The notes: a model not told the origin generated them from the letters alone. A DNA stretch of 64,000 nucleotides from Saxibacter everestensis (GCF_025787225.1 NZ_CP090958.1:3148550-3212549), one strand, 5' to 3'. Positions 23,212 to 52,926 are shown, counted from the first letter of the stretch. A program made the numbers and translations.

Positions 23212-23215
<4 letters not shown>
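21695..23215 (+). CDS. xdhA: Xanthine dehydrogenase small subunit (2Fe-2S and FAD)
   Basis: A 506-residue protein. The plant-type [2Fe-2S] domain (GCAEGECGACAVLV, Cys40/45/48) and the second [2Fe-2S] domain (QCGYCTPGF and LCRCTGYRP) are followed by a CO-dehydrogenase-flavoprotein-like FAD domain from about residue 225 (LFPQFASRLIRNRATLGGNLGTGSPIGD). It passes electrons from the Mo subunit to NAD+ in oxidation of hypoxanthine and xanthine to urate. Oddity: about 40 extra, Ala/Asp-rich residues (roughly 128-170) with an internal DGAA-x2-D-x-VPA repeat split the two Cys pairs of the second cluster. The stop overlaps the next start by four bases. Confidence 0.93.
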
Positions 23216-25605
<2,390 letters not shown>

Positions 25606-25608
25606 GTC

Positions 25609-33740: not shown

Positions 33741-33767
33741 CAACTTCCTAACCCTCTTCTCCGAGCT

Positions 33768-35362: not shown

Positions 35363-35364
35363 CC

Positions 35365-36234: not shown

Positions 36235-38576
36235 TTCTTCATCCCTTCTTGGCGAGGTGTCTCTGTGCGAACGCCGGCCAGGGCAATGTCGTCGGGCCGG
36301 ACCGGCGCGCGCGGCAGATCGAGGCCGGTCGCGTCGCGAAGCGCGTTCAGGATCGCCGGGGTGGAGGACAGGGTGGGTGGCTCGCCGACGCCGTTCAGCC
36401 CGTACGGCGAGTCCGGGTGCGGGAACTCGAAGAGCCGGATCGGCATCGACGGGACGTCCAGGATCGTCGGGATCAGATAGTCGGTGAATGAGGGGTTGCG
36501 CACCAGCCCGCCGGAGTCGACCAGGATCTCCTCCATCAGAGCCAGACCGAGGCCCTGCACGCTGCCGCCCTCGATCTGCCCCTCGACGGCTATCGGATTC
36601 ATTGCCTTCCCGACGTCCTGAGCGGTGGCCAGTTCGACCACGCGGACCAAGCCGAGCTCGGTGTCGACATCCACCACGGCGCGGTGCGCGGCGAACGCGA
36701 ACGCGATGTGGGCGTCGCCCTGTCCGGTCTCCGGGTCGATCGTCTCTGTCTTGCGGTGGTGGAATTCAGCCTCCCGCTCGATCACGTCATCGACCAGCTC
36801 GGCGATCGTCACCACAGCCTCGCCGCTTGCGGCGTTGACGACGCCATCCTCCGCGAGCGTCAGTGCGGAGGCCGGAATGCCCACGCGTTCTGCCGCGCGG
36901 CCAAGTATCTCGGCCGCGACAAATCGGCACGCCCGCTGCACCGCCCCGCTGGACATCCAGGTCATCCGGGATGCAGATGCCGATCCCGCATCCCCGATCG
37001 TGGTGTCGGCAGGCAGGATGACGACCCGGGAGACCCCGAGTTCGGTACTGACGATCTGGGCCTGAACCGTTGTCACCCCCTGACCGCATTCCGCCGCGGC
37101 CGTGTGCACGCTGACCACGGGAGCGCCACCGCTCACCGTCAGCCTGATCCGCGCCGTGGAGATGTCGTCCACGCCGCCGGAGTAGCCGATCGCTTTGACT
37201 CCTACGGCATAGCCCACCCCTCGCACCAGCCCTTCGCCATGGGTGGTGTTGGACACGCCGCCCGGCAGTGCCCGAATGTCGGCTTCCAAGTCGACGGCGG
37301 GCGGCATCGGCAGTTCCTCAAGGCTCTGCAACAGCTCGGCCACCGGCGCCGGGCCATCCACCTCCTGCCCGGTCGGGAGCACAGTCCCGGTGGTCATCGC
37401 GTTTAGTCTGCGCAACTCCACCGGATCCATGCCGAGCGCGGTCGCCAGTCGGTCCATATTGGATTCGACGCCGTAGCAGGACTGCACCGCTCCGAAACCG
37501 CGCATCGCACCGCAGGGCGGGTTGTTGGTGTAAACCGCGATGCCGTCGATTTCGGCCACTGGCACCTCGTACGCACCGGCGGCAAAGTAGCTGGCGTTTG
37601 CGATGACGACCGGAGATGTCGAGGTGTAGGCCCCGCCGTCGAGCAGCAGCCTGGCCTTGACGTAGACGAGCCGCCCGTCCCGGCGTGCGCCATGCTCGAA
37701 CCGCATTCTGGCCGGGTGCCGATGCACGTGTCCGAAGAACGACTCCTGCCGGTTGTAGACCATCTTGACCGGCCTGCCCAACCGCAGCGCGAGCATGCAG
37801 GCATGCACGTGCACGGACAGATCCTCTTTGCCGCCGAACGCTCCACCTACGCCGGCGAGAGTCAGTCGGACGCGGTCCGGCTCCAGGCCGAGGCACGGGG
37901 CAACCTGCTCGAGATCCTTATGCAGCCACTGGCTGGACACGTAGAGCTCGACTCCTCCGTCTTCGGTCGGGACAGCAAGCCCCGACTCAGGCCCGAGGAA
38001 TGCCTGATCCTGCATACCCATCTCGTAATCCCCAGTGACAACCACCTCGGCCTCGTCCCTGGCCTGACTCATGTCGCCGCGCCTGATCTTCACGTGCCTG
38101 ACCAGGTTGCTGTCCTGATGGACCGGTCGTTCGTCCTCGAGCGCGCGTTCCGGATCGGTGACCGGCTGAAGGACCTCATATTCGACCCGGATCAGCTTGG
38201 CGGCCTGCCGGGCGACCTCGGGGTCATCGGCCGCCACGAGCGCGACCGACTCGCCCTGATAGCGGACCTCATCGATGGCGAGGACAGGCTGGTCGGAAAC
38301 CTTCATCCCATACGTCTTGGCCCCCGGCACGTCCTCATGCGTAAGCACCGCCCGCACACCCGGAACCGCGAGGGCAAGGCTGGTGTCGATGGCGACTATC
38401 CGGGCCGCAGCATGCGGACTGCGAAGTGTGGTCGCCCAGACCATGCCGTCCATCCAGAGGTCCGATGAGTAGGCAAACTGGCCACTGACCTTCAACGCCG
38501 CATCCGGGCGCCTCTGGCTCGAACCGATCTGGCCGACGCCGCTGGTCTCCGCGCTCCGTACCTGGGTGTGTGGCAT
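36231..38576 (-). CDS. Molybdenum hydroxylase large subunit, PucD/XdhD-like
   Basis: A 781-residue molybdopterin subunit from ATG 38576 behind AGGAG; an upstream frame extension is unsupported. GVGGAFGGKEDLS near 255, PCGAMRGFGAVQS near 362, AAAECGQGVTTVQAQI near 515 and GLNGVGEPPTLSS near 740 are the Mo-site motifs. The GAMRGFG loop and ECGQGV fit nucleobase/N-heterocycle hydroxylases (PucD, XdhD-like); the CO-dehydrogenase CSFR loop is absent. It probably hydroxylates an N-heterocycle or oxidises an aldehyde. First gene of a five-gene operon. Confidence 0.9.
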   Translation of the reverse strand: MPHTQVRSAETSGVGQIGSSQRRPDAALKVSGQFAYSSDLWMDGMVWATTLRSPHAAARIVAIDTSLALAVPGVRAVLTHEDVPGAKTYGMKVSDQPVLAIDEVRYQGESVALVAADDPEVARQAAKLIRVEYEVLQPVTDPERALEDERPVHQDSNLVRHVKIRRGDMSQARDEAEVVVTGDYEMGMQDQAFLGPESGLAVPTEDGGVELYVSSQWLHKDLEQVAPCLGLEPDRVRLTLAGVGGAFGGKEDLSVHVHACMLALRLGRPVKMVYNRQESFFGHVHRHPARMRFEHGARRDGRLVYVKARLLLDGGAYTSTSPVVIANASYFAAGAYEVPVAEIDGIAVYTNNPPCGAMRGFGAVQSCYGVESNMDRLATALGMDPVELRRLNAMTTGTVLPTGQEVDGPAPVAELLQSLEELPMPPAVDLEADIRALPGGVSNTTHGEGLVRGVGYAVGVKAIGYSGGVDDISTARIRLTVSGGAPVVSVHTAAAECGQGVTTVQAQIVSTELGVSRVVILPADTTIGDAGSASASRMTWMSSGAVQRACRFVAAEILGRAAERVGIPASALTLAEDGVVNAASGEAVVTIAELVDDVIEREAEFHHRKTETIDPETGQGDAHIAFAFAAHRAVVDVDTELGLVRVVELATAQDVGKAMNPIAVEGQIEGGSVQGLGLALMEEILVDSGGLVRNPSFTDYLIPTILDVPSMPIRLFEFPHPDSPYGLNGVGEPPTLSSTPAILNALRDATGLDLPRAPVRPDDIALAGVRTETPRQEGMKK

Positions 38577-38618
38577 GTCGATCTCCTGGATGAGATGGGG
38601 CATCCGCCACTTAGCACC

Positions 38619-38683
38619 GCACACTTCTTCGTGTGCGCTAACCCGGAATGCCGTGCTTAGAGGCCGAGTCAACACGTGTAAAC
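38619..38683. promoter_or_regulatory. Candidate LacI operators
   Basis: Two dyads in the 206-base gap between the Mo-hydroxylase operon and the divergent LacI gene. GCACAC-N6-GTGTGC (38619-38636) is flanked by TTAGC and GCTAA arms. A second dyad centred on ACACGTGT (38672-38679) has the central CG typical of LacI sites. Confidence 0.5.
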
Positions 38684-38782
38684 CCCGACTGTCAAGCTTT
38701 TTTGTTCTCGTGACTACGATTGGCAAATGGAAGATTGGGCAGCACTCGAACATGAGGCGATTGGAAGAGAGGACCTTAAGTC

Positions 38783-39781
38783 GTGCGCCGAGTGACCCGC
38801 GATGACGTGGCGCGACGAGCTCGGGTCTCCCCAGCCGTCGTCAGCTTCGTTGTCAATAATGGGCCGCGTCCCGTCGCCGCCTCGACCCGGGAGCGCGTCC
38901 TGGCCGCCATTGCCGAGCTCGGATACCGACCCAACCTCGTCGCCCGGGCTTTACGCTCCACTCGCAGCAACACCATCGGACTTATCGTTCCGGATAGCGG
39001 GGAGCCCTACTTCACCGAGTTGGTGCGCGCAGTCGAACGCGCGACGTTCGCACAGGGGTCGCTCGTACTGCTGGGAAATTCAGGCTTTTCCGCCGAGCGC
39101 GAGCGGCAGTACGCCGAATCACTGTCGAACATGCGGGTAGACGGGCTACTACTCGTCCCCGCGGAGGTGGATGACAGGAACGGCCACCCGATTCCGGACG
39201 TCGACGTACCCGTCGTCTATCTCAATGGCCAACCGCCGGCCGGGGCACAGGCGCCTTCCGTGCGACTGGACGACGTTGGCGGCGGACGAGCCATCACCGA
39301 CCACCTGCTGACACACGGCTACAGAGAGGTTGGATGCCTCACCGGACAGGCGCACACCGGCCCGGTGGCCGACCGCGCCCGCGGCTGCCTGGAGGCTCTG
39401 AGTAGCGCCGGCCTCGCCCCGACTCGGGTACTGAGGACCGGCCTCGACCGGCACTCAACCAAGCGAGAGGTCACCGCCTGGCTGGAAGGGCCACAGCGCC
39501 CACAGGCAATCGTGGCTGCTGCGGATGGCCTGGCAATCGACGTCCTGACCGTGGCCCATGAGCTCGGTTTACGGGTCCCCACCGACCTGGCCGTTGTCGG
39601 GTTCGGGGCAACGGCGCCCGCCGCGCACAGCTGGCCCACCCTGACCACGATCGGGCGCTCGTTCGACGACCTGGCGACAGCGGCGGTGTCATCGCTACTC
39701 ACCAGCCGGGACAGCCACGTCCTCGACGTCCACCTCATCCCGCGGGCGAGCTGTGGATGCGCGGAGGGACGGAGCAGCTAG
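38783..39781 (+). CDS. LacI-family transcriptional regulator
   Basis: A 332-residue regulator from GTG 38783. The HTH is at residues 4-45 (TRDDVARRARVSPAVVSFVVNN) with hinge helix NLVARALRSTRS, then a periplasmic-binding-like core. It ends with the CGC motif seen in actinobacterial LacI proteins. Divergent from the Mo-hydroxylase operon, so that operon is the probable target. LacI effectors are usually sugars or nucleosides and bases (PurR), which fits a heterocycle ligand. Confidence 0.92.
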   Translation: MRRVTRDDVARRARVSPAVVSFVVNNGPRPVAASTRERVLAAIAELGYRPNLVARALRSTRSNTIGLIVPDSGEPYFTELVRAVERATFAQGSLVLLGNSGFSAERERQYAESLSNMRVDGLLLVPAEVDDRNGHPIPDVDVPVVYLNGQPPAGAQAPSVRLDDVGGGRAITDHLLTHGYREVGCLTGQAHTGPVADRARGCLEALSSAGLAPTRVLRTGLDRHSTKREVTAWLEGPQRPQAIVAAADGLAIDVLTVAHELGLRVPTDLAVVGFGATAPAAHSWPTLTTIGRSFDDLATAAVSSLLTSRDSHVLDVHLIPRASCGCAEGRSS

Positions 39782-39842: not shown

Positions 39843-40559
39843 TTGGAACAGGACAGCACAGCGGAGCAACGGAGCCTGCTGGCCGACCAGACGTATGAGA
39901 CCCTCAAACTCGCCGTACTGCGCAACGAACTGCCGCCCGGCACATCACTGAGCGTCCCCGAGCTCGCCCGGCAGCTCAAGGTCAGCCGCAGCCCGGTGCG
40001 CGAGGCCGTGCTACGACTGATCCACGACGGCCTGGCGACCCAGGCGATGTACCGCGGTGCGGAGGTCAGCCGGGTCGATGTCGAGGACCTCCGTCAGCTC
40101 TACGTCGTGCGCGAGGCCCTCGAGGGCGTCGCGGCCCGGTTGGCAACCGAGCACCTGGACAGCTCCCACCTCGAGGTATTGAAGGAGATTGTCGCCGACC
40201 ACGAGGTCGTCGTCCAGGCCGGGGCCGACAACGCCGCGCACATCGAGCTCGACATGCGGTTCCACCGCGAGATCCGCGACCTCGCAGGGAATCCGCACCT
40301 CTCATTCGCTTTGGAGCCGATCGTCGGCCGTTCCCATATCGCCCTGCACTCACTGTGGCGCAGCCCGGAAGCGCCCCGCCTCGCACTCGATGAGCACCGA
40401 CTCATTCTGGACGCGATGATCGCCGGCGACGCTGACGCGGCCGAAGCCGCCGCCCAGCGCCACGTCGCTCGCCTGCGGGTCCGCCTTGCCCGGGCTGTTC
40501 CGGCAGGGACGGAGCCGGTGAAACACCGACTCCGCCCCCAGCTGTCACACCTGGCCTGA
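39843..40559 (+). CDS. GntR-family regulator, FCD subfamily
   Basis: A 238-residue regulator starting at TTG 39843, about seven bases after GGAGG. The winged HTH spans about residues 12-78 (LSVPELARQLKVSRSPVREAVLRLIHDGL). The FCD ligand domain follows, with metal-binding residues in DMRFHREI and two later His. FCD proteins sense carboxylates and metabolites. Palindromes at its own promoter and around the next divergent promoter suggest autoregulation and control of the amidohydrolase and UbiD operons. Confidence 0.9.
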   Translation: MEQDSTAEQRSLLADQTYETLKLAVLRNELPPGTSLSVPELARQLKVSRSPVREAVLRLIHDGLATQAMYRGAEVSRVDVEDLRQLYVVREALEGVAARLATEHLDSSHLEVLKEIVADHEVVVQAGADNAAHIELDMRFHREIRDLAGNPHLSFALEPIVGRSHIALHSLWRSPEAPRLALDEHRLILDAMIAGDADAAEAAAQRHVARLRVRLARAVPAGTEPVKHRLRPQLSHLA

Positions 40560-40627: not shown

Positions 40628-41632
40628 TCAGACGGTGACCGCAGCGGCGTCGGCGGCGGCCTCCTCCGCCCAAGCGGTTGGTTCGTACCCCGCGTAGTCC
40701 GAGGCATGCGAATTCGTCGCCGACGCCTGGGTGATGTCGCCCCGGAGATACGCCTGAGCCTGGGCCTCGTCCTTCGGCGGGGGCGTGGGCTGCAGACCGA
40801 GGAGCTTCGCCATGTTGTTGCCCAGGTACCCCTCGAGGTCGTCCTCGGAGAGGTTGAGTCCCTGCGGCGGCTTGTGGCAAAGAACCTCGAGTTCGCGGGC
40901 CCACATTCCCGGCTCGTTCGGAGGAGAATCGGTGCCGAAAACCATCTTGCTCTTCTTCATCTCCTTTGCGAACTCCACGATCCGCGACTGAAGCAGCCAG
41001 CCGGACTCCCCGATCACGTTCGTCGAGTCCTGGATCATCCAGAACGCCTCGAAGCAGTACACGCCGCCGGTCTGGATTCCGAAGTGCCCGAGAATGAACG
41101 TGACGTTCGGGAATTCCCTGATGATCGGATAGAACTGCGTCGGGATCGAGTACGGTCCGTCACCAGTATGAATGAGCACGATCACGCCGAGCTCATCACA
41201 TACCCGCATCGCCGGCCGCAGCCAGTCGAGCGCCCGGTCGGGCCGGTACGAGTGCATGTTGGCGTGGAGTTTGAGCATCTTGTACCCGTGCTCCTTGACG
41301 TGGAACTCCAGCTCCTTGGCACCGTTCTCCGGACCGAACCGGGGATTGTAGATGAAGTTGCCAACGAACCGGTCGGGATACCTCTGCACCAGGGAGGTGA
41401 CGTACGCCTGGTAATCCCGGATGCCCTCCCGCCCGGTTCGATTGCCCTCACGCCACTGCGTATTCCCCGGCGGGGGCATTATGCAGCTGACGTCGACGCG
41501 ACGCGGCTTGCCATTCAGCCAGAACGGCCCGTCCATCATCTCGAGCGTGCGTTCGCCGTTGAATGGCTCGCCGGTGTGCCGCCAAGCCTCGTCGACGAGG
41601 TTAGTGGGGTGGACATGGGTATCGATGATCAT
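40628..41632 (-). CDS. Metal-dependent amidohydrolase (ACMSD/amidohydrolase-2 type)
   Basis: A 334-residue TIM-barrel enzyme from ATG 41632 behind GGAGG. IIDTHVHP (His6, His8), KLHAN near 155, LIHTGDGPYS near 183, ILGHFG near 208 and FGTDSPP near 250 provide the metal site. The family includes ACMSD, gamma-resorcylate and isoorotate decarboxylases as well as hydrolases. In this context it could act as a second decarboxylase or as a ring-opening hydrolase. It is divergent from the aminohydrolase-UbiD operon across a 373-base regulatory gap. Confidence 0.82.
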   Translation of the reverse strand: MIIDTHVHPTNLVDEAWRHTGEPFNGERTLEMMDGPFWLNGKPRRVDVSCIMPPPGNTQWREGNRTGREGIRDYQAYVTSLVQRYPDRFVGNFIYNPRFGPENGAKELEFHVKEHGYKMLKLHANMHSYRPDRALDWLRPAMRVCDELGVIVLIHTGDGPYSIPTQFYPIIREFPNVTFILGHFGIQTGGVYCFEAFWMIQDSTNVIGESGWLLQSRIVEFAKEMKKSKMVFGTDSPPNEPGMWARELEVLCHKPPQGLNLSEDDLEGYLGNNMAKLLGLQPTPPPKDEAQAQAYLRGDITQASATNSHASDYAGYEPTAWAEEAAADAAAVTV

Positions 41633-41731
41633 AGTGGCCTCCATTGGGATTAACTTGTCCCCGGCCGCGGCATGCCGCACCTTCGGGCTTGCCTCTGCAG
41701 CTCAGCACATGGAAACCCGATCCGTCAAGAA

Positions 41732-41743
41732 CAACATGTAATT
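41732..41743. promoter_or_regulatory. GntR operator site 2
   Basis: CAACATGTAATT; in reverse complement AATTACATGTTG, sharing nine of ten core bases with the perfect site 1. It lies about 100 bases upstream of the amidohydrolase start. Confidence 0.5.
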
Positions 41744-41843
41744 CTTTTTGCTCGTCGGCTTTACGACTGGCCCTGGATGGAAAGCAACGGTTAGCGATAG
41801 AAAATCGTCCCCGAAACCTCTTGACAACCGCCTTCGAGCCGGG

Positions 41844-41855
41844 ATTACATGAAAT
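41844..41855. promoter_or_regulatory. GntR operator site 3
   Basis: ATTACATGAAAT, a near match of the palindrome at 39788. It lies 18 bases after a TTGACA, so it overlaps the probable -10 region of the plus-strand operon. Confidence 0.5.
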
Positions 41856-42005
41856 CTCGACGCACCCCCGTCAAAAGCGCCGGTGACCTCCCAGGACCCC
41901 TGGGTCAACCGTTTCGGCAGATTCATCCCCGCTCGTTGGGGAGTTCGATCCCGGAGTCAGCTCGAACGATGAGGCGGCGATGACGCTGCCAGGGAAGTAG
42001 GCACA

Positions 42006-43457
42006 ATGCCACCGGCCAGCTCTCAAATCCATCAGCAATCCCCCGCAGCAGGCGAACATCGATGCGACATCCTGCTCACGGGAGCCATCGTGCTCACGAT
42101 CGACGACCACAGAACCGTGCATAGCCCGGGCGCCATTGCAATAACCGGCAACAGAATCGCCGCAGTCGGCCCCGAGATCGAACTTGCCGGCTGGGAGGCG
42201 ACAACCAGGATCGATTGCGCCGGTAAGGCATTGATCCCTGGTTTCGTCGACGGCCATAACCATCTGTACCAATCCCTGGCCAAGGGCTTGGGCGAGGGGA
42301 TGTCCATCGTCCCCTGGCTCTGTGAATTCATGTGGCCGTACTCGATCGCCATGCAACCGTCCGACGCTATAGCCGGTGTCCGGCTCGGCGCCATCGAGGC
42401 AGCCAGGGCGGGCATCACCACGGTGATCGACAATCATTACGCCCCGGCCGACCCGGAGACGACCCTGGCCGTGGCCGAAACGATTGAGCAGGTCGGCCTG
42501 CGCGGCGCCGTGGCGCGGGGCATCGTTGGCGAGCCGTCGCGCATCGCCAAGCGGCGTGGGCAGCCCGCCGAGTTGTTCCGGTATTCAGCAATCGACGAGC
42601 TGGCGATCACGAGGGAGTGCATTGAGGCCCGGCCGAGCGGTGAGAAGGTTGCCATCTGGCCGGCGCCGCTCAACCTCACCTACGTCGAGCCCTCCCTCGT
42701 CCGCGGCGCCATCGAGCTGGCCGCTGAGCTGGGCACCCGCTGGCACACACACTGCTGCGAAGGCAGCGGCGACCCGGGTAGCTATGTCGAGGAATACGGC
42801 CAGCGTCCGGTGCAGTGGCTCGCCGACGAGGGACTGCTCGACGAGCGGGCCACCCTCGCGCACGCGGTCTGGCTGGACGACAGCGAGATCGACTCGATCG
42901 CGGCGGCCGGTGCCGGTGTGGCGCACAACCCGGCGTCCAACGCCTACCTGGCCTCCGGCACGATGCGTCTGCGCGACCTCCTTGACCGTGGTGTCCCGGT
43001 GTCACTCGGCACCGACGGCCCCAGTTGCGGGCATCGCGAAGACATGTTCGAGGCGATGAAGCTCACGATCTTCGCGCAGCGGCTCGGCACCGAGGATCCG
43101 ACAGTTGTCCGGGCTGAGGAGGCACTGGAGCTCGCCACCCGGGAAGGCGCCCGCTATGCCGGCGTCGACGCCGGCATCCTCGAGGCCGGCCGGCTCGCTG
43201 ACATCGTCGCGGTCGACCTGTCCGCACCGCATCTGAATCCGATGCACCGCGCCGTGAGCGCCCTGGTCTACTCGGCGCAGCCCAGTGACATCTCATGGAC
43301 GATGGTCGGCGGCGAATTCATCTACCGAGACGGACGCTGTCTGCTGGTCGATGAGGAGGCGGCGCTGGACGACGCGCGGCGACACGCGGACGACGTCGTC
43401 GCCCGCGCCGGGATGACCGGCCTGCTCCAGGCGTGGGACCACGGGAGTGCGTCATGA
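42006..43457 (+). CDS. ATZ/TRZ-type aminohydrolase (N-heterocycle deaminase)
   Basis: A 483-residue COG0402 amidohydrolase with an N-terminal extension of about 20 residues. FVDGHNHLYQS (His84, His86), WHTHCCEG near 250, LAHAVWL near 284 and SLGTDGPS near 336 form the mononuclear Zn/Fe site; the Glu in HCCEG is the usual general acid. Members deaminate guanine, 8-oxoguanine, isocytosine, pterins or triazines. It is not closely like the 8-oxoguanine deaminase at 53180. First gene of the operon; its stop overlaps the next start by four bases. Confidence 0.88.
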   Translation: MPPASSQIHQQSPAAGEHRCDILLTGAIVLTIDDHRTVHSPGAIAITGNRIAAVGPEIELAGWEATTRIDCAGKALIPGFVDGHNHLYQSLAKGLGEGMSIVPWLCEFMWPYSIAMQPSDAIAGVRLGAIEAARAGITTVIDNHYAPADPETTLAVAETIEQVGLRGAVARGIVGEPSRIAKRRGQPAELFRYSAIDELAITRECIEARPSGEKVAIWPAPLNLTYVEPSLVRGAIELAAELGTRWHTHCCEGSGDPGSYVEEYGQRPVQWLADEGLLDERATLAHAVWLDDSEIDSIAAAGAGVAHNPASNAYLASGTMRLRDLLDRGVPVSLGTDGPSCGHREDMFEAMKLTIFAQRLGTEDPTVVRAEEALELATREGARYAGVDAGILEAGRLADIVAVDLSAPHLNPMHRAVSALVYSAQPSDISWTMVGGEFIYRDGRCLLVDEEAALDDARRHADDVVARAGMTGLLQAWDHGSAS

Positions 43458-44815
43458 CCTTCCTCTCATTCCGAAAGAAGCGAAACAAGTCCGCGACCGC
43501 CGGCGACATCCCGATCAAGGATGCCGTCGATACCGCCCCACGCCTGCTGCACATGATCCCGCTGGGGTTGCAGCACGTACTCGTGGCCTACTCCGGCATG
43601 ATCACGACGAGCCTGTTGATCGGCGTCGGGGTCGGGCTGTCCACCGAGCAGATCGCCGTCCTGGTCAGCGCGAACGTGCTGGTCTGCGGGATTGCGACGG
43701 TCCTGCAGACTCTGGGACTATTCAACATCGGGGTGCGACTCCCGATCGTGATGGGCTCCACGTTCACCGCGATCAGCCCGGCAATCGTCATCGGTAATGA
43801 CGCCGGGCTACCGGCGGTGTTCGGGGCAACCCTCGTCGCCGGCGCACTCACCTGGCTGGTGGCGCCGTGGTTCAGCAAGCTGATGCGGTTCTTCCCGCCG
43901 ATCGTGACCGGTACGATCATCGCCATCATCGGCTTCTCCATTCTGCCCTCGACCGCCAACCTGATCGCCGGTCCGGATCCCGCGGCAGCCGACTACGGCT
44001 CGGCCACCGGGCTGCTGCTCGCCCTGTTCACCATCGTGTTAGTCATCGGACTCGAGCGGTTCGCTCCGCCCGCGGTCGGCCGGTTCGCCATCCTGATCGC
44101 GCTCGGCGTCGGCACATTGGTCGCGATACCACTGGGACTGACCGACTTCTCGGGGGTCAAGGACGCCGACCTGGTCGGGTTCGTCCGGCCGTTCGAGTTC
44201 GGCCTGCCGACGTTCCCGATCGCCGCGATCATCCCGATGCTGATCGTGCAACTGGTCAACATGGTCGAGTCCGTCGGCGACACCCTCGCGATCGGTCAGA
44301 TCGTCAACAGAAAGATCGGTCCGAACGAGGTTGCCCGCGCGTTGCGGGCAGACGGGGCCGGCACGGTCTTGGCCGGCGTCTTCGGATCACCCTCGATCGT
44401 TACGTTCGGCAACAACGTGGGCTTGGTGACCATCACCAAGGTCATGAGCCGGTTCGTCGTGGCAACCGCGGGAATCTTCCTGATCATCATCAGCCTCCTG
44501 CCGAAGCTCGGCACGTTCGTGGCTTCACTCCCTGGCCCCGTGCTGGGCGGCGTCGGAGTCGTCATGTTGGGCACTGTCGGCGCAATCGGCATCAAGATCA
44601 TCGGCCAGGCCGACCTGACCGACGGGCGCAATCTACTCATTGTCGCCGTCTCGTTCGGATTCGGGCTCCTGCCGGTCGGCGCCCCGCAGCTGTACCAGCA
44701 CCTGCCCGGCGCGCTCAACATCGTGCTCACAAGTGGTATTGCCGCCGGTGGTATCGCAGCGTTCCTCCTCAACTTGTTGCTGAACGTTCGTCGAGGAAGG
44801 GACGTCAATGGGTGA
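43454..44815 (+). CDS. NCS2 nucleobase permease (first of two)
   Basis: A 453-residue, 14-segment UraA/XanQ-fold transporter from ATG 43454. HMIPLGLQHVLVAYSG is the TM1 signature, VNMVESVGDTLAIGQIVNR carries the TM8 substrate Glu motif, and FGNNVGLVTITKV is TM10. Such carriers are H+ symporters for uracil, xanthine, urate or analogues. Coupled to the deaminase by a four-base overlap. Confidence 0.93.
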   Translation: MTFLSFRKKRNKSATAGDIPIKDAVDTAPRLLHMIPLGLQHVLVAYSGMITTSLLIGVGVGLSTEQIAVLVSANVLVCGIATVLQTLGLFNIGVRLPIVMGSTFTAISPAIVIGNDAGLPAVFGATLVAGALTWLVAPWFSKLMRFFPPIVTGTIIAIIGFSILPSTANLIAGPDPAAADYGSATGLLLALFTIVLVIGLERFAPPAVGRFAILIALGVGTLVAIPLGLTDFSGVKDADLVGFVRPFEFGLPTFPIAAIIPMLIVQLVNMVESVGDTLAIGQIVNRKIGPNEVARALRADGAGTVLAGVFGSPSIVTFGNNVGLVTITKVMSRFVVATAGIFLIIISLLPKLGTFVASLPGPVLGGVGVVMLGTVGAIGIKIIGQADLTDGRNLLIVAVSFGFGLLPVGAPQLYQHLPGALNIVLTSGIAAGGIAAFLLNLLLNVRRGRDVNG

Positions 44816-44950
44816 CCTGTTCAACCGAGTAATCAGCCAGCAATAGCAAGGGCATTCGCCCCGTAGGTGCTGTGGCAATCGCCGCGCGGCCGGGGGACCT
44901 CAACCGGGCGGCGACCCGGCTGACGCCCCGAACAGTGAGGCAGTGAAGCT

Positions 44951-46321
44951 ATGGTCAAGAAGCAACGCTCCGCGAACCAGTCCGCCGTGGACGAACGACT
45001 ACCTTTCCCCAGCACGGTACTGCTCGGGATGCAGCACATCCTGGTGATGTACGCCGGCGTCGTCGTCGTGCCGATCATCGTCGGGGCCAGCCTCGGCTTG
45101 ACCGAGGAACAGATCGCCGACCTGGTCAGCATCGACCTGATCCTGTCCGGAATCGGCACCATCTTGCAGGCCTTGGGCGTGTGGAAGTTCGGCATCCGGA
45201 TGCCGCTGGTCGTCGGCGCGGCGTCCAATGGAATCGTCCCGATGGTTCTGGTCGGCGAGGACCGCGGCCTGCCCACTGTGTACGGGTCACTGCTCGTGGT
45301 CGGCGTGATCTGGATGCTCATTGCACCGTTCTTCAGCCGGCTGCTCCGTTTCTTCCCGGCCGTGGTGACCGGAACCGTCATCGCGTTGATCGGACTGACC
45401 CTGATCCCGATCGGCTTGCGGTTGATCGCGGGGCCCGATCCGGCCGGTCCCGGATACGGCGACCCGAAGCACATCGGACTGGCGGCATTGACCATGTTCC
45501 TGATGGTCGTGTTCTACCGGGTGTTCCGCGGCCTGCTCGGTCAGCTGTCCATCCTGCTCGCCCTCGTCATCGGCTCGATCGTCGGCTGGGCGACCGGCAT
45601 CGGCAGCCTGGCCGGCATCTCGGATGGTCCGGTGATCGGGATGATGCGGCCCTTCCATTTCGGCGGGCTTGAGTTCCACGTGCCGTCGATCCTGCTATTC
45701 CTGGTGATCGTCTTCGTCCTGATGGTCGAGGGAACCGGTCAGGGGCTCGCGGTCGGTCAGGTGGTCGGCAAGAAGGTCGGCCCGGAGGAGATCACCCGGC
45801 TGCTCCGCGTTGACGGGCTGATGACTGCGATCAGCGGTGTGTTCAACGGCTTCGCGTACACAACGTTCGGACAGAACATCGGGCTGATCGCACTCACCAA
45901 GGTTCGCAGTCGCTATCCGGTAATCGTCGGCGGCGTGCTCCTGGTCGCGCTCGGAATCTTCCAGCCGATTGGCCGAGTGGTAGCGGCAATTCCACAGCCC
46001 GTGGTCGGCGCGGCTGCGGTCGTGACCTTCGCCGCCCTCGCGGTGGCAGGCCTTCAGATCCTCGGTAAGGTCGATTTCAACCAGAGCAGCAACCTGGTGA
46101 TCGTGATGCTAGCCCTAGGAGTCGGCCTGGTTCCCGCCGGTGCGCCGGCGTTCTACACGCAGTTCCCGGACTGGTGCCAGATCTTCCTGAAGAGCGGCGT
46201 CGCCTCGGGCACGATTATCGCCGTCTCGCTGAACATCGTGTTCCACGTCCTTCGCCGAAGCCCCCCGGCTCCTGAAGAGCCTGTTCCCGCAGAACCGTCC
46301 CGATTGCAGGAAGAGGCGTGA
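44951..46321 (+). CDS. NCS2 nucleobase permease (second of two)
   Basis: A 456-residue UraA/XanQ-type permease, clearly a paralogue of the preceding one but diverged. TM1 has LLGMQHILVMYAGVVVVP; TM8 has VFVLMVEGTGQGLAVGQVVGK, with Thr-Gly-Gln-Gly where the first permease has Val-Gly-Asp-Thr, which may change ligand preference; TM10 has FGQNIGLIALTKV. A 135-base gap separates it from the first permease. Possibly imports the carboxylated form or a different intermediate. Confidence 0.93.
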   Translation: MVKKQRSANQSAVDERLPFPSTVLLGMQHILVMYAGVVVVPIIVGASLGLTEEQIADLVSIDLILSGIGTILQALGVWKFGIRMPLVVGAASNGIVPMVLVGEDRGLPTVYGSLLVVGVIWMLIAPFFSRLLRFFPAVVTGTVIALIGLTLIPIGLRLIAGPDPAGPGYGDPKHIGLAALTMFLMVVFYRVFRGLLGQLSILLALVIGSIVGWATGIGSLAGISDGPVIGMMRPFHFGGLEFHVPSILLFLVIVFVLMVEGTGQGLAVGQVVGKKVGPEEITRLLRVDGLMTAISGVFNGFAYTTFGQNIGLIALTKVRSRYPVIVGGVLLVALGIFQPIGRVVAAIPQPVVGAAAVVTFAALAVAGLQILGKVDFNQSSNLVIVMLALGVGLVPAGAPAFYTQFPDWCQIFLKSGVASGTIIAVSLNIVFHVLRRSPPAPEEPVPAEPSRLQEEA

Positions 46322-46326
46322 GAACC

Positions 46327-46935
46327 ATGCGACCCCGGGACCGCCTCGTTGTGGGCATAAGCGGCGCCAGCGCCCCCCATCTCGCCGTTCACCTGCTTGA
46401 ATCGCTGCGTCGGCTCGGCACCGTCGAGACACACCTCGTGATCTCCAAGGCCGCGAACCGCACGATCGAACTAGAGACAGGCCTGCCGATCGAGGACGTG
46501 CGGGCGCTTGCGGATCACGTCCATCGTCGTGACGATATTGCGGCAAGTATCGCCTCCGGTTCGTTCCCGGTGCTGGGGATGGTGGTCGTTCCGTGCTCCA
46601 TGCGGACTGTCGCCGCTATTGCCCACGGCTACGCCGATGGTCTGCTCCCCCGGGCTGCCGACGTATGTCTCAAGGAACGCCGGCCGCTGGTCCTGGTGGC
46701 CAGGGAAACTCCGCTCAGCCTGATCCACCTTCGCAACCTGGTCACGGTGACGGAGGCCGGGGCGACGGTGCTCCCCCCCATGCCCGCCTTCTATCACGCC
46801 CCGCAGACGATCGATGATCTGCTCGGCCACCTCTCGGGCAAGATCCTCGATCAGTTCGGGATCGATCACGACCTCTACCCGCGCTGGCAGGGGCCGCCTG
46901 CCGCACACCTACTGCACTCGGAGGAGACGGCATGA
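46327..46935 (+). CDS. ubiX: UbiX-family flavin prenyltransferase
   Basis: A 202-residue protein from ATG 46327, ten bases after GGAAGAGG (a GTG at 46318 is the alternative). GISGASAPH near 10-18 is the FMN-binding loop (GxTGASG in most UbiX, one Gly replaced), VVPCSMRTVAAIAHG near 90, RETPLSLIHLRNLVTVTEAG near 120, and PPMPAFYHAPQTIDDL near 148. UbiX makes prenylated FMN from FMN and dimethylallyl phosphate for UbiD enzymes. The UbiD gene overlaps its stop by four bases, so it is most likely the dedicated cofactor maker. Confidence 0.92.
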   Translation: MRPRDRLVVGISGASAPHLAVHLLESLRRLGTVETHLVISKAANRTIELETGLPIEDVRALADHVHRRDDIAASIASGSFPVLGMVVVPCSMRTVAAIAHGYADGLLPRAADVCLKERRPLVLVARETPLSLIHLRNLVTVTEAGATVLPPMPAFYHAPQTIDDLLGHLSGKILDQFGIDHDLYPRWQGPPAAHLLHSEETA

Positions 46936-48356
46936 TCGCCGATACCCAGGATCTCCACGTTCTGCTCGACGCATATCGCCGGACCCATCCGGAGGACGTG
47001 CTGATCATCGAGGAAAAGGTGTCTCCCGAGGAGGGCGTCACCGGATTGATCTACGAACTGCGCGACCAGGGCCGGTCCCCGGTGGTGTGGTGCGAGGAGC
47101 TGGGCATCGGCGCTCCCGTTGTGAGCAACATGTTCGCCTCACGGGAGCGGATCGCTCGGCTGCTCGGCACCAACGTGGCGGGACTGCACGAGCGGTATCA
47201 CCAGCTTGCCAGCAACCCACGCCCGATGCGGGTCGTCGAGACCGGACCGATCCTCGACCTGGTCGAAGACGACGTCCACCTGGACACCGTGCCAATGATC
47301 AAACACTTCGCGTCCGACCGCGGCCCCTACGTCACGAGCGGGATAATCGTTGCCGAGGACCCGGACACCGGCGTCGGCAACCTGAGCTATCACCGTTCAA
47401 TGAAGCACAGTGACACGGAGCTGGCAACCAGCCTGCACTCCCGTGGCGACCTCTGGCGGATGCTGCAGAAGTACCGCGAACGCGGTGAGCAGATGCCGGT
47501 TGCCATGGTGATCGGGGGCCATCCGCTCTTAATGCTCGCGGCGTCTTCCAGGGTCGGGTATGACGTCGACGAACGGGAGATCGCCGGCGGCCTGCTCGGC
47601 GACTCGCTCGATGTCGTCCGTACCCCCCGGTGGGGGATCAAGGTGCCGGCCAGCGCCGACCTGGTGTTGGAGGGCGTGATCGATCCGGAGGCCAGGGCCG
47701 AAGAGGGCCCGTTCGGCGAATTCTCCGGCTACTCATCGAACCGGTCGACGAACAACGTGTTCCGGGTGGACACCGTGCTTCGCCGCCGGGACGCTCTGCT
47801 GCTCGACGTTGAGGGCGGCAACACCGACGAACATCTCAACCTGGCCCGCATTCCGCGAGAATCGGAAATGGCAGAGAAGCTCAAGGCTCGTTTCCCGGAC
47901 GTGACGGCCGTGCATTACCCGACATCCGGAACCCATTTCCACTGCTATGTCGGTCTTCGTCAACGCCGGCCCGGCCAGGCACGCCAGGTGATGTTAGGCC
48001 TGCTCGGCTGGGATCCGTACGTCAAGACGGTGATTGCGGTCGACGACGACATAGACGTCAGCCAGGATGGCGAGGTGCTGTGGGCGTTGGCCACACATTT
48101 CCAGCCCCACCGCGACCTATTCGTCATCGACGGGCTGCCCGGATCGCCGCTGGACCCGTCGTCCACCGCCGACGGCACGACTTCGCGGTTGGCACTCGAC
48201 GCGACCCGCGGCCCGGACTTCGACGGCGCCCGGATCGTAATTTCCGACCAGGCACGAGAGCGCGCCCGGCACATCCTGGCCTCCGCGCAAGCCGTGCCCC
48301 CGCTGAACAAGACCCAACCCACGTCAGATGAAACCAGTTCGGGAGGACAATCATGA
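46932..48356 (+). CDS. ubiD: UbiD-family prenylated-FMN decarboxylase
   Basis: A 474-residue UbiD-fold protein. The catalytic E-R-E set appears as Arg155 in VGNLSYHR, and Glu258 and Glu263 in [12 protein letters not shown]; these correspond to Fdc1 Arg173, Glu277 and Glu282. The Asn150 metal ligand is present. UbiD enzymes decarboxylate unsaturated, aromatic or heteroaromatic acids (for example pyrrole and furan carboxylates). Neighbouring nucleobase permeases and a deaminase suggest a carboxylated heterocycle. It overlaps the COG0523 gene by four bases. Confidence 0.92.
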
Positions 48357-49336
48357 ACGCACTGCCAAAGATCCCGGTCACAGCACTGACCGGCTTCCTC
48401 GGATCGGGCAAGACCACGCTGGTCAACCACATCCTCACAGCGGAGCACGGGCGGCGAATCGCGGTGATCGAGAACGAGTTCGGCGAGATCGATATCGACA
48501 GCGACCTCGTTGTCAGCGGCGACGAGAAGATCATCGAGATGAGCAATGGGTGTTGCCTGTGTTGTACGGCGCGCACCGACCTGATCGAGATCCTTCACGA
48601 CCTGCTTGGTCGCCGTGAACGCTTCGACCACATCCTGATCGAGACCAGTGGCCTGGCCGACCCGAACCCGGTGGCTCAGACCTTCTTCGTCGACGACAGC
48701 GTGGCGGAGAACTTCGGATTGGACGCGATCGTCACTCTCGTCGACGCCGCGCACATTGAGGAGCATCTGGACGAGACAGGCGAACACGGCGTCGGCGCTC
48801 AGGCCCAGGATCAGATTGCGTTCGCCGACCGGATCGTTATCAACAAGATCGACCTCGTGGACGAGGCGAAGCTGGGCTCGGTCACCCGCCGGGTGCGCTC
48901 GATCAACGCCAGCGCGGATATCCTCACGTCGACGTACGCCGATATCGATCTCGAACGCATCCTTGGCATCGGAGCGTTCGACCTGACCCGCACAGTGACG
49001 GAAGACCCGTCGTGGCTGGAGGAAGAACACAACCACGATCCCTCGCTGTCCTCGGTGGGAATCAGCCTGAATGGTTCCTTGGACCGCTCGTCGTTCGAGA
49101 GCTGGCTGAACACGTTCATCGACGCGCGAGGGGGTGACGTGTACCGGCTCAAGGGGCTACTGGCCATGCACAACGATCACCGGCGCATCGTCGTCCAGGG
49201 CGTGCACCGAATGTTCGAGCTAACGCCGACAAGTCCGTGGGGCCAGGCCGAGCGCACTTCCAAACTGGTGATCATCGGCCGCGAACTCGATCGCTCCGAG
49301 ATCACGGAGGGGCTGGAGGGATGCCTGTCCTCCTGA
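48353..49336 (+). CDS. COG0523 (CobW/ZNG1-like) metal-chaperone GTPase
   Basis: A 327-residue G3E GTPase. Walker [10 protein letters not shown] (about 14-22), the CxCC metal motif in NGCCLCC (Cys68, Cys70, Cys71), [10 protein letters not shown] near 96, and NKIDL near 164, then a C-terminal CobW_C domain. Family members deliver Zn, Co or other metals to client enzymes. Here, terminally coupled to an operon with a metal-dependent aminohydrolase, it probably metallates that enzyme. The last gene before a strong terminator. Confidence 0.9.
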
Positions 49337-49401: not shown

Positions 49402-50964
49402 CTATGTCGTCCGTTCCGGCCGTACCGGCACCTCGGGATCCGACTTTTCGTCGGCCGCCGGGACACCGCCGGAACGCGCTGCGGCCGGACTTTCGGCATC
49501 AACTGGTTCCGCGGATTCCACCGCAACCTCGACGCCGTTGGCATCGATCAGCTTGCCACCTTCGAACCGGTCTCCGTCGGCAAGCGCCGCGAGATCAGCT
49601 TCACTGACTACACGTCCAGTTCCGGCAACGAAGACCGACTGCTTGTCCGAGTTGCCAAATTTGAGATGGTTGAACAGCAGGTTGAGCAGAATCGCCATTA
49701 TCGCCGCCGAGCTGATTCCGGAGTGGAAAATGGTGGAGAACCAGTCCGGGAACTTGTCGTAGAAGGTGGGTGCCGCGATCGGAATCATGCCGAAGCCGAT
49801 CGAGGTGGCCACCACGACCAAGTTCATATTGTTCCGGTACTCGACCTTGGCCAGGGTACGGATTCCGCTCGCCGCGACGGTGCCGAACAGCACCACGCCG
49901 GCTCCACCCAGCACCGATGTCGGCACGGCCGCGACCACCCGGCCGAGAATCGGCAACAGACCCAGGATGACCAGAATCAGTCCACCCGCGCTGACCACCC
50001 ATCGACTCCGCACGCCGGTAATCGCCACCAGGCCGACGTTCTGCGCAAACGCGCTCTGCGTGAACGAGTTGAACACGGGCGATACGGCGCTGGACAGCAT
50101 ATCCGCCCGCAGTCCGGCTGCAATCCGTCGCGAATCCACCTTGGTGTCCACGATTTCGCCGACCGCGATGATATCCGCCGAGGTTTCGGTCAGCGTCACC
50201 AGGATCACGATGAACATCGAGATGATCGCGGCAATATGGAAGGTCGGCATCCCGAAGGCGAACGGCGTCGGGAAGGCAACGATGTCGCCGTCCGGCACGG
50301 CCGAGAAATCCGCCATCCCGACAGCCGCGGCGATAACCGTGCCAATCACCATCGCCAGCAGGATAGACAGCCGGGAGATGGTGGCGCTGCCGACCTTGCT
50401 CAGCAGCAGCACGATCACCAGGGTCAGACCGGCCAGCCCGACGTTGGCCATGCTGCCGTAACCTTCAGCCTCGCTGTTGCCACCCATCGCCCAGTTCGCC
50501 GCGACCGGCATCAGGGTAAGCCCGATCGTGGTGATCACCGTTCCGGTGACCACCGGCGGGAAGAACTTGATCACCTTGGAAAAGATCGGGGCGATAAGCA
50601 GACCGAGTATCGAGGCAGCTATCACCGAGCCGAAGATCGACTGGATACCCCCGCCGGAGTCGAGAATGGCCACCATGGTCGCCACGCCGGAGAACGAAAC
50701 GCCCTGGACCAACGGAAGCTGCGAACCGAAGAACGGCACTCCGATGGTCTGCAGCAGAGTTGCCAGGCCGCCCATGAAGAGACACGCCGCGATCAGCACG
50801 CCGATCTCCGTTGACGGCATGCCCGCCGCCGCGCCGATGATCAGCGGCGGGGCGATGATCCCGCCGTACATGGTGAGCACATGCTGGAACCCGTAGGCGA
50901 ATGTGGCGCCGACGGACAGTTTTTCGTCCTCCGGCCGACCCTTGGGCCGTAGTTTGTTGCGCAT
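49402..50964 (-). CDS. NCS2 permease, urate/xanthine type
   Basis: A 520-residue permease with a C-terminal hydrophilic tail of about 75 residues. GFQHVLTMYGGIIAPPLIIG (TM1) and TLTETSADIIAVGEIVDTKV (TM8, with Glu-Thr-Ser-Ala-Asp) plus FTQSAFAQNVGLVAITGV (TM10) resemble uric acid/xanthine permeases such as PucJ/UacT. AAGGAGG precedes the ATG. It is immediately downstream of the uricase operon on the same strand, separated by a hairpin, which fits urate uptake. Confidence 0.92.
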   Translation of the reverse strand: MRNKLRPKGRPEDEKLSVGATFAYGFQHVLTMYGGIIAPPLIIGAAAGMPSTEIGVLIAACLFMGGLATLLQTIGVPFFGSQLPLVQGVSFSGVATMVAILDSGGGIQSIFGSVIAASILGLLIAPIFSKVIKFFPPVVTGTVITTIGLTLMPVAANWAMGGNSEAEGYGSMANVGLAGLTLVIVLLLSKVGSATISRLSILLAMVIGTVIAAAVGMADFSAVPDGDIVAFPTPFAFGMPTFHIAAIISMFIVILVTLTETSADIIAVGEIVDTKVDSRRIAAGLRADMLSSAVSPVFNSFTQSAFAQNVGLVAITGVRSRWVVSAGGLILVILGLLPILGRVVAAVPTSVLGGAGVVLFGTVAASGIRTLAKVEYRNNMNLVVVATSIGFGMIPIAAPTFYDKFPDWFSTIFHSGISSAAIMAILLNLLFNHLKFGNSDKQSVFVAGTGRVVSEADLAALADGDRFEGGKLIDANGVEVAVESAEPVDAESPAAARSGGVPAADEKSDPEVPVRPERTT

Positions 50965-51034: not shown

Positions 51035-51934
51035 CTAGCAGAAACCTGCTATGCCTTCCCAGGCGCGGCCGGCGTCGGCTGCACCTTCACGCTGAACTGT
51101 TGCCTCGATCAGGCCATACGGCCGGTCGGCGGCGTAGAAAACCTCGTTCGGGTTCTCCAGCTCGAACGGCGAGAGATCGACAAGGAAGTGGTGCAGGTTC
51201 GGCATCGAGAACTTGATCTCGTCAATCTCCTCGTGCGCGGCGAGCACCTGCTTGCCCATTTCGAACAGTGACTGCTGCAAGGCGAGGGAATGAGTTGTCG
51301 CGAAGGCCTCGAGCATGGTCCGGCGCACATCGTCGAACGACTTGTCGTAGTCGACATCGAGGGTGTTGTACCGCCACCGGCTGGTGACCGATGTCGCCAG
51401 AATGCGATCCGTCGTCTCCTTCAGCGTCGTGTACTGATCCTTGGGGTAACCGGTGAATTCAGAACCGGTCGACTTGAGCACGGACAGGTCTTGCAGGCCC
51501 GAGATGACGGTCGGCTTGCCCTTGTCGATAGTGACGACGGCGGTCCGGGTTTCGGTGCCGGCCTTCACGAAGGAATGGTCGTGTCCCTGCCCGCCGACCT
51601 CGATGCGATCCCACTGATACTTCTCGGCTGCCCAGCGACCGCCATCGACCCAGTCGAAGCTGTCTACGAAGTGGCTGCCGAGTCGCAGCAGGAACTCTTC
51701 CGGCGTTCCGACGCCGTCTTTGGCGAAGGCATAGACAGTGTTCTTCTGTGTATCGGTGGCCACCACGTGGGCGTTGTCACCGGTGAGGTGCGCGTCGGCG
51801 AAATCGCCCCGGAGCTGGGACGTCACGCTGAGGTCTTCGATCTGGTGACGTGGCGCGTCACGGGTGATCCGGACGAGGCGCACCTCGGCCTTTCCGTACT
51901 GGTTGGCTCCCAGCACGATGTTTTGCGCTGACAT
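51035..51934 (-). CDS. uaz: Urate oxidase (uricase)
   Basis: A 299-residue cofactor-free uricase with two T-fold domains. N-terminal LGANQYGKAEVRLVRI holds the catalytic Lys near residue 15; VVATDTQKNTVYAFAKD near 58 has the Thr; SEFTGYPKDQYTTLKE near 163 and LPNLHHF-type NLHHFLVDLSPF near 255 are diagnostic. It oxidises urate to 5-hydroxyisourate. The HIU hydrolase gene starts two codons upstream, with OHCU decarboxylase before it, forming the full urate-to-allantoin module. Confidence 0.96.
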   Translation of the reverse strand: MSAQNIVLGANQYGKAEVRLVRITRDAPRHQIEDLSVTSQLRGDFADAHLTGDNAHVVATDTQKNTVYAFAKDGVGTPEEFLLRLGSHFVDSFDWVDGGRWAAEKYQWDRIEVGGQGHDHSFVKAGTETRTAVVTIDKGKPTVISGLQDLSVLKSTGSEFTGYPKDQYTTLKETTDRILATSVTSRWRYNTLDVDYDKSFDDVRRTMLEAFATTHSLALQQSLFEMGKQVLAAHEEIDEIKFSMPNLHHFLVDLSPFELENPNEVFYAADRPYGLIEATVQREGAADAGRAWEGIAGFC

Positions 51935-51937
51935 GAC

Positions 51938-52264
51938 TTAACTCCCTCGGTAGGTTGAATAGGCGAATGGGCTCAGTAGCAGCGGCACGTGGTAGTGCTC
52001 GCCGGCGTCGCCGACCAGGAAATCGATGCTGACTCCCGGGTAGAAGGTGTCCCGATCCGTGGCGGCGAAGTAGTCTGCGGTTGAAAATTCCAGCCGGTAA
52101 CGGCCGGGTTCGAGCCGGTCGGGTCCGAGGTCGCCGATCCGCCCGTCGCTATCGGTGCGTCCCTCGGCAAGCACGTCTCCTGCCGGGTCGAGCAGGCGGA
52201 TAGCCACACCCTCCGCCGGCTTTCCCAGGGCGGCATCGAGTATGTGCGTTGTGATCTGACTCAT
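51938..52264 (-). CDS. uraH: 5-hydroxyisourate hydrolase (transthyretin-like)
   Basis: A 108-residue protein with ITTHILDAALGKPAEGV at the start (catalytic His) and the diagnostic C-terminal YRGS. It opens the HIU ring to give OHCU. Its ATG overlaps the OHCU decarboxylase stop by four bases. Confidence 0.95.
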   Translation of the reverse strand: MSQITTHILDAALGKPAEGVAIRLLDPAGDVLAEGRTDSDGRIGDLGPDRLEPGRYRLEFSTADYFAATDRDTFYPGVSIDFLVGDAGEHYHVPLLLSPFAYSTYRGS

Positions 52265-52758
52265 TCCTGCAGGGCTCCTTCCAACCGCAAAACGGCAATC
52301 TCGCGTAATTGTTCGGCCATGATCTCCCGCTCCTGCGCGGGCGAATTCAACAGCCGGCTGTTGAGCGCGGCCAGAATCTCATCGGCACTCCGACCGGCAG
52401 CACGGATCAGGAAGACATGGCCGAATTTCTGCTCGTAGGCCAGATTTCCGCGCTTCAGCTCATCCGCGACCTCGGCATCGGCCGGATCGACGCCGGACTG
52501 CTCTGCGCGTGACATCTTGGCTTCTTGTCCCGCACCGGCCGCTCGATCGCCGATTCTCGGGTGGTGAACCAGCGCGCCCTCGATCTCGGCATCGGTGAAC
52601 GGCCGAGCCGCGGCTCGTGCCGATTCGAGCACGTCAGAGCGTGCTGCGAACGGACGGCGGTCCACGACGTCGGCCGCCCAGCGCTCGACATCCAGACACG
52701 GCAGCAAAAGCGCGCGAGCGTCTTGCGCCGGCGCCGCGTTGAACTCCGAAAGGTTCAA
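52261..52758 (-). CDS. uraD: OHCU decarboxylase
   Basis: A 165-residue all-helical protein. HHPRIGDRAA near residue 66 carries the catalytic His and the HPxxG motif, and FGHVFLIRAAGRSADEILAALNSRLLN near 120 is conserved. It decarboxylates OHCU to (S)-allantoin. The preferred start is TTG 52758 (LNLSEFN), with AAGGAGG five bases upstream; a longer frame to 52827 has no ribosome site and would cover the operator. First gene of the urate operon. Confidence 0.92.
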   Translation of the reverse strand: MNLSEFNAAPAQDARALLLPCLDVERWAADVVDRRPFAARSDVLESARAAARPFTDAEIEGALVHHPRIGDRAAGAGQEAKMSRAEQSGVDPADAEVADELKRGNLAYEQKFGHVFLIRAAGRSADEILAALNSRLLNSPAQEREIMAEQLREIAVLRLEGALQE

Positions 52759-52773
52759 GTCTTCCTCCTTCAC

Positions 52774-52800
52774 TTCCACTTTGTGGAAAGTTTTTTCCAC
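52774..52800. promoter_or_regulatory. Overlapping palindromes before the urate operon
   Basis: TTCCAC-TTT-GTGGAA (52774-52788) overlaps GTGGAAA-N4-TTTCCAC (52783-52800), 16 bases upstream of the uraD start. IclR-family operators (for example those of AllR) have this TTCC/GGAA type symmetry, so this is a likely purine-regulon operator. Confidence 0.65.
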
Positions 52801-52926
52801 TATATTGCGCTTGGGCTTCCACGACAAGAGCTATTCGAGATTTAGCCGGTCCGGCCGAATCGGACTAGCGGCACACATTCTGCAATCTCCCTTGGCTGCA
52901 CCGGCGACAAGCACTAAGCCGGACAT

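Follow-up and report, generated by a model that had tools for sequence, protein, structure and literature searches.

The window analysed here is a stretch of 64,000 nucleotides from the genome of Saxibacter everestensis (GCF_025787225.1, NZ_CP090958.1:3148550-3212549). Between positions 40628 and 49336, counted from its first letter, it holds a gene cluster in which a UbiX/UbiD decarboxylase pair is set among genes of nucleobase-type uptake and deamination. The cluster is real, widespread and coherent, with a conserved core consisting of UbiD, UbiX and a metal-dependent amidohydrolase (AH2). Its role is probably the catabolism of pteridines.

Gene layout of the cluster

All seven genes of the region were found at the positions and in the families given by an earlier sequence-only reading, and the plus-strand operon with four-base overlaps described there was confirmed by coordinates and profile matches. 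The operon begins with a COG0402 (ATZ/TRZ) aminohydrolase, a proposed pterin deaminase (42006-43457; PF01979, 184 bits), followed by NCS2 permease a (43433-44815, likely start at 43454; PF00860; TIGR03173, 448.9 bits) and NCS2 permease b (44951-46321; PF00860; TIGR03173, 433 bits). As both permeases exceed the TIGR03173 cut-off of 414.15 bits, they belong to the pbuX subfamily. Next come a UbiX-type flavin prenyltransferase (46318-46935; NF004685, 260.9 bits, cut-off 188; TIGR00421, 227 bits, cut-off 108.9), a UbiD-family decarboxylase of the kind dependent on prenylated flavin mononucleotide (prFMN) (46932-48356; PF20695, PF01977 and PF20696 all over cut-off), and a COG0523 (CobW-type) metal GTPase (48353-49336). 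Overlaps of four bases (ATGA or GTGA) occur at four junctions, namely between the aminohydrolase and permease a (when the ATG at 43454 is taken), between permease b and UbiX, between UbiX and UbiD, and between UbiD and CobW, so that UbiX is overlapped on both sides. A gap of 135 bp separates the two permeases.

AH2 (PF04909/COG2159; PF04909, 127.8 bits) is encoded divergently on the minus strand (40628-41680), with a likely start at 41632 (MIIDTHVHP). The COG0523 GTPase has both the cobW and CobW_C domains (PF02492, 196.8 bits; PF07683, 78.4 bits), reaches no NCBIfam subgroup cut-off, and is adjacent in nearly all related clusters; it is proposed as a metal chaperone for AH2 or for the deaminase. 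Leftwards from 40628, the gene cluster extends into a puc-type molybdenum (Mo) hydroxylase (34838-38753).

Conservation of the cluster and its proteins

A scan for UbiD, with one genome per species, yielded 379 relatives, of which the best 80 were fetched with their flanks. Among these, 67 loci were long (at least 19 kb), 19 of them actinobacterial and 48 proteobacterial. AH2, UbiX, CobW, NCS2, deaminase and Mo hydroxylase all lie within about 10 kb of UbiD in 59 of the 67 long loci (18/19 actinobacterial and 41/48 proteobacterial), a linkage that far exceeds chance, and the Mo hydroxylase is present in 64. The relatives come from Amycolatopsis, Nocardia, Saccharopolyspora, Pseudonocardia, Nocardiopsis, Georgenia, Pseudomonas, Paraburkholderia, Trinickia, Cupriavidus, Ramlibacter, Variovorax, Brucella and others. 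The linkage spans Actinomycetota and alpha-, beta- and gammaproteobacteria, on chromosomes and plasmids and with varying gene order; for instance, annotated plasmids of Paracoccus, Sinorhizobium, Ponticoccus, Caballeronia and Shinella carry the core with rearranged partners. The co-occurrence of the six families is therefore conserved rather than unique to one genome, and the linkage scan rules out a chance neighbourhood limited to the one analysed here. Moreover, the identity matrices of UbiD, UbiX, CobW and AH2b (the second proteobacterial copy of AH2) correlate with r of 0.71-0.99 over 69 loci, as is expected if the genes travel together. These results support the placing of a UbiX/UbiD decarboxylase within a nucleobase-type uptake and deamination pathway.

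The distribution of the UbiD subfamily is patchy, since at an identity of at least 70% it occurs in only 2 of 396 sampled genomes of the window's own order. The only other relative at the level of this order (L003, G278:C131:67563-68963; 72% identity) contains two in-frame TGA codons, which may reflect a frame error, decay or recoding. In the laboratory strain Sinorhizobium meliloti 2011 the cluster is present on pSymB (140045-150000, L110), with 85-95% identity to S. medicae, and S. meliloti 1021 also has AH2. In Caballeronia and Paracoccus, genes resembling arylmalonate decarboxylase/Asp-Glu racemase are found beside the cluster or close to it (L103:19816-20604, L100:24819-25544).

AH2 is the most conserved protein of the set. 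The median identity between the window and other actinobacteria is 87% for AH2, 71% for UbiD and 63% for CobW, and the window AH2 shares 85-91% identity with its actinobacterial counterparts. A peripheral ring-opening role for the amidohydrolase is not supported, as AH2 belongs to the conserved core with UbiD and UbiX and is not accessory. The Saxibacter genome has one AH2, and Actinomycetota have a single copy of the active kind, whereas every long proteobacterial locus has two adjacent copies; likewise, a plasmid scan found 182 AH2 places in 91 records, that is, two each. The window AH2 keeps the candidate catalytic residues HxH, KLH, H, H and D, and AH2b keeps HxH, KLH, H155, H183 and D235 in all sampled sequences. 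In contrast, the first proteobacterial copy, AH2a, retains H155, H183 and D235 and lacks the HxH and the K/H pair in 11 of 11 sampled sequences. Owing to this loss of metal ligands, AH2a is probably a non-catalytic partner subunit.

A model of AH2 (mean predicted local distance difference test score, pLDDT, 75.5) has its nearest neighbours among COG2159 hydrolases and decarboxylases, with a Z of 20.5 to 3cjp, a likeness that does not settle the reaction of AH2. By plain sequence, AH2 had no match in the PDB at E 0.001, and a profile search gave weak matches only, the best of which (E 7e-5) was 5-carboxyvanillate decarboxylase.

The single UbiD of the 4.05 Mb genome has all three domains (UbiD_N, UbiD and UbiD_C) and scores 290.9 bits with TIGR00148, over the cut-off. 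Its R155, E258 and E263, previously noted as intact, are invariant in 22 aligned sequences. Judging from its family, UbiX would supply prFMN to this enzyme. The closest solved relative of UbiD, both by sequence and by model, is HmfF (6h6v/6h6x; Z 41.9/39.4, the next being 36.0), and orthology to HmfF is rejected at an identity of only about 33%. A menaquinone or ubiquinone enzyme is also rejected, as TIGR03701 and NF008175 are far under cut-off.

Three types of deaminase are found on this one core. In 50 loci, all of them beta- or gammaproteobacterial, 2PAJ was the best-matching test enzyme for the cluster deaminase. In phmmer comparisons, 2PAJ scored 453 and 592 bits where the 8-oxoguanine deaminase 3HPA scored 295 and 249 bits. 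These cluster deaminases share 47-60% identity with 2PAJ, keep its Gln, Tyr and Thr-Thr positions and carry its APTT motif, where 8-oxoguanine deaminases have CS. We take 2PAJ to represent one of the Sargasso Sea enzymes described by Hall et al. 2010, in which Gln, Tyr and two Thr reportedly bind the substrate. Those enzymes deaminate isoxanthopterin and pterin-6-carboxylate (PMC5270733). Pterins, already named among the candidate substrates, keep their place, as the beta/gamma deaminase is of the isoxanthopterin type. Furthermore, 24 of 149 Pseudomonas genomes have a 2PAJ-type deaminase and 14 have the cluster UbiD, and all 14 of the latter carry the deaminase about 3.4 kb further on (hypergeometric p 1.2e-13, a value that is optimistic owing to shared descent). 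In five Pseudomonas genomes (L105-L109), a UbiD-less 2PAJ-type deaminase stands at 5/5 loci beside a conserved ABC transporter (NMT1/THI5-like) and a Rieske (VanA-type) oxygenase, which makes a second pteridine-like context, different from that of the cluster.

The window deaminase keeps the metal histidines, Gln and Tyr of 2PAJ, with Leu-Asn in place of Thr-Thr. Its score to 2PAJ is just 135 bits, below several others, and no NCBIfam equivalog cut-off is reached; residues and scores thus rule it out as a 2PAJ orthologue. The COG0402 enzyme of alphaproteobacterial clusters is cytosine-deaminase-like, and that of actinobacterial clusters, the window among them, is a further type with the Gln and Tyr and without the Thr pair. 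The presence of three deaminase types on one core suggests a deaminated compound, at the level of a lumazine, as what the core acts on.

Neighbouring genes and the proposed route to xanthine

The Mo hydroxylase is encoded on the minus strand by genes for a 2Fe-2S subunit (34838-35545; PF01799, PF00111), an FAD subunit (35365-36234; assigned from sequence and from homologues in related clusters) and a Mo-binding subunit (36231-38753; TIGR03196 pucD, 846.5 bits, cut-off 783.65). Homologues of the Mo subunit, at 71-82% identity, occupy the same position in most actinobacterial clusters. The enzyme is proposed to be a pteridine hydroxylase, and its substrate may be xanthine or a pteridine. In Pseudomonas (L055:4080-7009), the neighbouring Mo hydroxylase looks IorAB-like and its Mo subunit starts with a twin-arginine signal (SRRTFLK), so that hydroxylation there may be periplasmic. 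Between the Mo hydroxylase and AH2, the plus strand encodes a LacI-family regulator (38783-39781; PF00356, PF13377), which recurs in several actinobacterial clusters, and a GntR/FCD-family regulator (39843-40559; PF07729, PF00392), which recurs in most of them. Further left (32382-34841), a class III aminotransferase lies beside an APH-family kinase, a pairing that resembles hydroxylysine kinase and phospholyase.

The window is additionally rich in genes of purine catabolism. The xanthine dehydrogenase (XDH) genes XdhA-XdhB-XdhC, for the conversion of xanthine to urate, lie on the plus strand (21695-26403), with TIGR02965 (906.3 bits) and TIGR02964 (250 bits) over cut-off and TIGR02963 slightly under it (443.2 bits, cut-off 467). 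XDH-type genes were present in all 24 cluster genomes tested, in 19 of them over the curated cut-off. On the minus strand, uricase, hydroxyisourate hydrolase (HIUase) and OHCU decarboxylase (51035-52827; TIGR03383, TIGR02962 and TIGR03180 over cut-off) are accompanied by an 8-oxoguanine deaminase, which feeds urate (53180-54538; NF006055, 687.8 bits, cut-off 532; top PDB match 3HPA), and by NCS2 permease c of the same urate/8-oxoguanine group (49402-50964; TIGR03173, 508.3 bits). This urate gene set adjoins the cluster in the Saxibacter window and in two Pseudonocardia.

From these components a route can be proposed for which we infer all substrates and the order of steps. The NCS2 permeases would import pterins such as isoxanthopterin, the COG0402 enzyme would remove the 2-amino group to give a lumazine, and the Mo hydroxylase would oxidise the pyrazine carbon or carbons to 6,7-dihydroxylumazine (tetrahydroxypteridine). 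AH2, probably aided in Proteobacteria by its paralogue without metal ligands as partner subunit, would then open the cyclic oxalamide and reclose it as an imidazole, yielding xanthine-8-carboxylate, and is accordingly proposed as tetrahydroxypteridine cycloisomerase (EC 5.5.1.3). UbiD, with prFMN made by UbiX, is the proposed decarboxylase of xanthine-8-carboxylate, releasing xanthine and CO2. Degradation would be completed by xanthine dehydrogenase and then by uricase, HIUase and OHCU decarboxylase, all in the window, with COG0523 delivering metal to the amidohydrolases. The whole explanation from pterins to xanthine is considered somewhat more probable than its negation, and the specific reactions of AH2 and UbiD stand only slightly above an even chance. 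It is an even bet that AH2, as a homomer in Actinomycetota and a heteromer in Proteobacteria, is the tetrahydroxypteridine cycloisomerase and that UbiD is the first prFMN-dependent purine-carboxylate decarboxylase. In the sequence-only reading, the imported compound itself was the carboxylate; this is not supported, as the isoxanthopterin-type deaminase and the Mo hydroxylase make it more likely that the carboxylate arises inside the pathway, when a dioxo-lumazine undergoes ring contraction. Nor was there support for isoorotate, orotate or plain purine carboxylates as imported substrates.

The nearest rival, which resembles the sequence-only reading, would have pterin-6-carboxylate, formed when folates are oxidised, imported and deaminated to lumazine-6-carboxylate. 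From this UbiD would make lumazine, into which the Mo hydroxylase would introduce oxygens before its ring is opened by AH2. The Sargasso Sea (2PAJ-type) deaminases accept pterin-6-carboxylate too (PMC5270733), and lumazine-6-carboxylate has been proposed, though not detected, as an intermediate of folate degradation in Variovorax (PMC9513972). This route is nevertheless unlikely, as it leaves the tight pairing of AH2 with UbiD in the core and the nearby urate genes unexplained, gives a ring-opened product without a known fate, and sits poorly with a UbiD whose nearest relatives act on five-membered heterocycles. Another proposal makes AH2 a metal-dependent decarboxylase or a hydrolase of the lactonase type, and lets UbiD act on some other acid, of a non-pteridine heterocycle such as a carboxylated pyrimidine, pyrazine or purine. 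Among the structural neighbours of AH2 are indeed the 2,3- and 2,6-dihydroxybenzoate, ACMS, 5-carboxyvanillate and isoorotate decarboxylases, and NCS2 carriers take pyrimidines too. A resemblance of fold does not give function, however, and the isoxanthopterin-type deaminase together with the Mo hydroxylase of 64 of the 67 loci favours a 2-amino-4-oxo-pteridine or purine over an aminopyrimidine acid, which makes this proposal distinctly improbable. That the genes are unrelated neighbours, with UbiX/UbiD serving an unrelated aromatic acid inside a general purine cluster, could be argued from the many purine catabolism genes of the window. It is largely refuted by the linkage and is very improbable indeed, for distant phyla show the same association where urate genes are missing, chromosomes as well as plasmids carry it, its gene order changes, and the partners diverge in a correlated manner.

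Several points also weigh against the proposed conversion of pterins to xanthine itself. The window and alphaproteobacterial deaminases are not of the 2PAJ type, which means that lineages may differ in the exact pterin used, and the 2PAJ-type deaminase is also found without UbiD in another conserved context. Many decarboxylases are among the best structural neighbours of AH2, and we know of no cycloisomerase precedent in its fold. Urate genes lie within about 10 kb in only 2 of the 19 long actinobacterial relatives. Additionally, PA0254, another UbiD, rejects imidazole-2-carboxylate, with its electron-poor C2 (PMC7976604), a caution for the chemistry proposed at an imidazole C2.

Pterins are abundant, coming from folates, biopterin and insect pigments. 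If the proposed route is true, it would offer candidate genes for an activity with an EC number from the 1960s. The UbiD/prFMN family would then gain a new substrate class and the COG2159 amidohydrolases a reaction of ring contraction, and folate and pterin breakdown would join purine catabolism.

Relation to known systems

The reactions proposed here have a precedent in Alcaligenes faecalis, for which McNutt 1963 and McNutt and Damle 1964 are said to have described the sequence from isoxanthopterin through 7-hydroxylumazine, tetrahydroxypteridine and xanthine-8-carboxylate to xanthine. For each reaction of that route the cluster offers a gene type, namely a deaminase, an Mo hydroxylase, an isomerase of the hydrolase type, a decarboxylase and then XDH, whereas the route itself was known as reactions without genes. 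The sequence-only reading knew of no described pathway of this kind; this stands for the genes, which were missing, and falls for the reactions reportedly described by McNutt. To our knowledge, no sequence of a known EC 5.5.1.3 enzyme exists for comparison. This activity was listed in 2007 as an orphan, marked "difficult" (PMC1940265). In the open-licence literature, no paper was found that joins UbiD with pterins, xanthine-8-carboxylate or EC 5.5.1.3 genes, and no gene set for pterin mineralisation was found there; a search for S. meliloti gene names gave a single mention, which was unrelated. Fan et al. 2013, working on Arad3529, reportedly took the genome context as a hint of an undescribed pathway for pterin degradation, so that part of the pathway idea may have been foreseen.

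At the level of single proteins, Arad3529 and the PDA of Variovorax sp. F1 (PMC9513972) represent COG0402-type pterin deamination, like the step proposed for the cluster. The solved COG2159 enzymes (ACMSD, isoorotate decarboxylase, LigW, LigY and 3cjp) share the fold and the layout of the metal site with AH2 (Z 17-20), although at 11-20% identity, and the pairing of an active with an inactive copy is unique to AH2. PA0254/HudA is also a UbiD enzyme that acts on the 2-carboxylate of a five-membered N-heterocycle (pyrrole-2-carboxylate), but it is distant in sequence from the cluster UbiD. HmfF, a furan-2,5-dicarboxylate decarboxylase, differs in its partners, and no furoate genes were seen alongside the cluster. 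The specificity residue of HmfF, named as H297 (PMC7976604) and counted as H296 in 6h6v, corresponds to H301 of the cluster UbiD, and HmfF decarboxylates a five-membered heterocycle at C2, as is proposed for the cluster enzyme.

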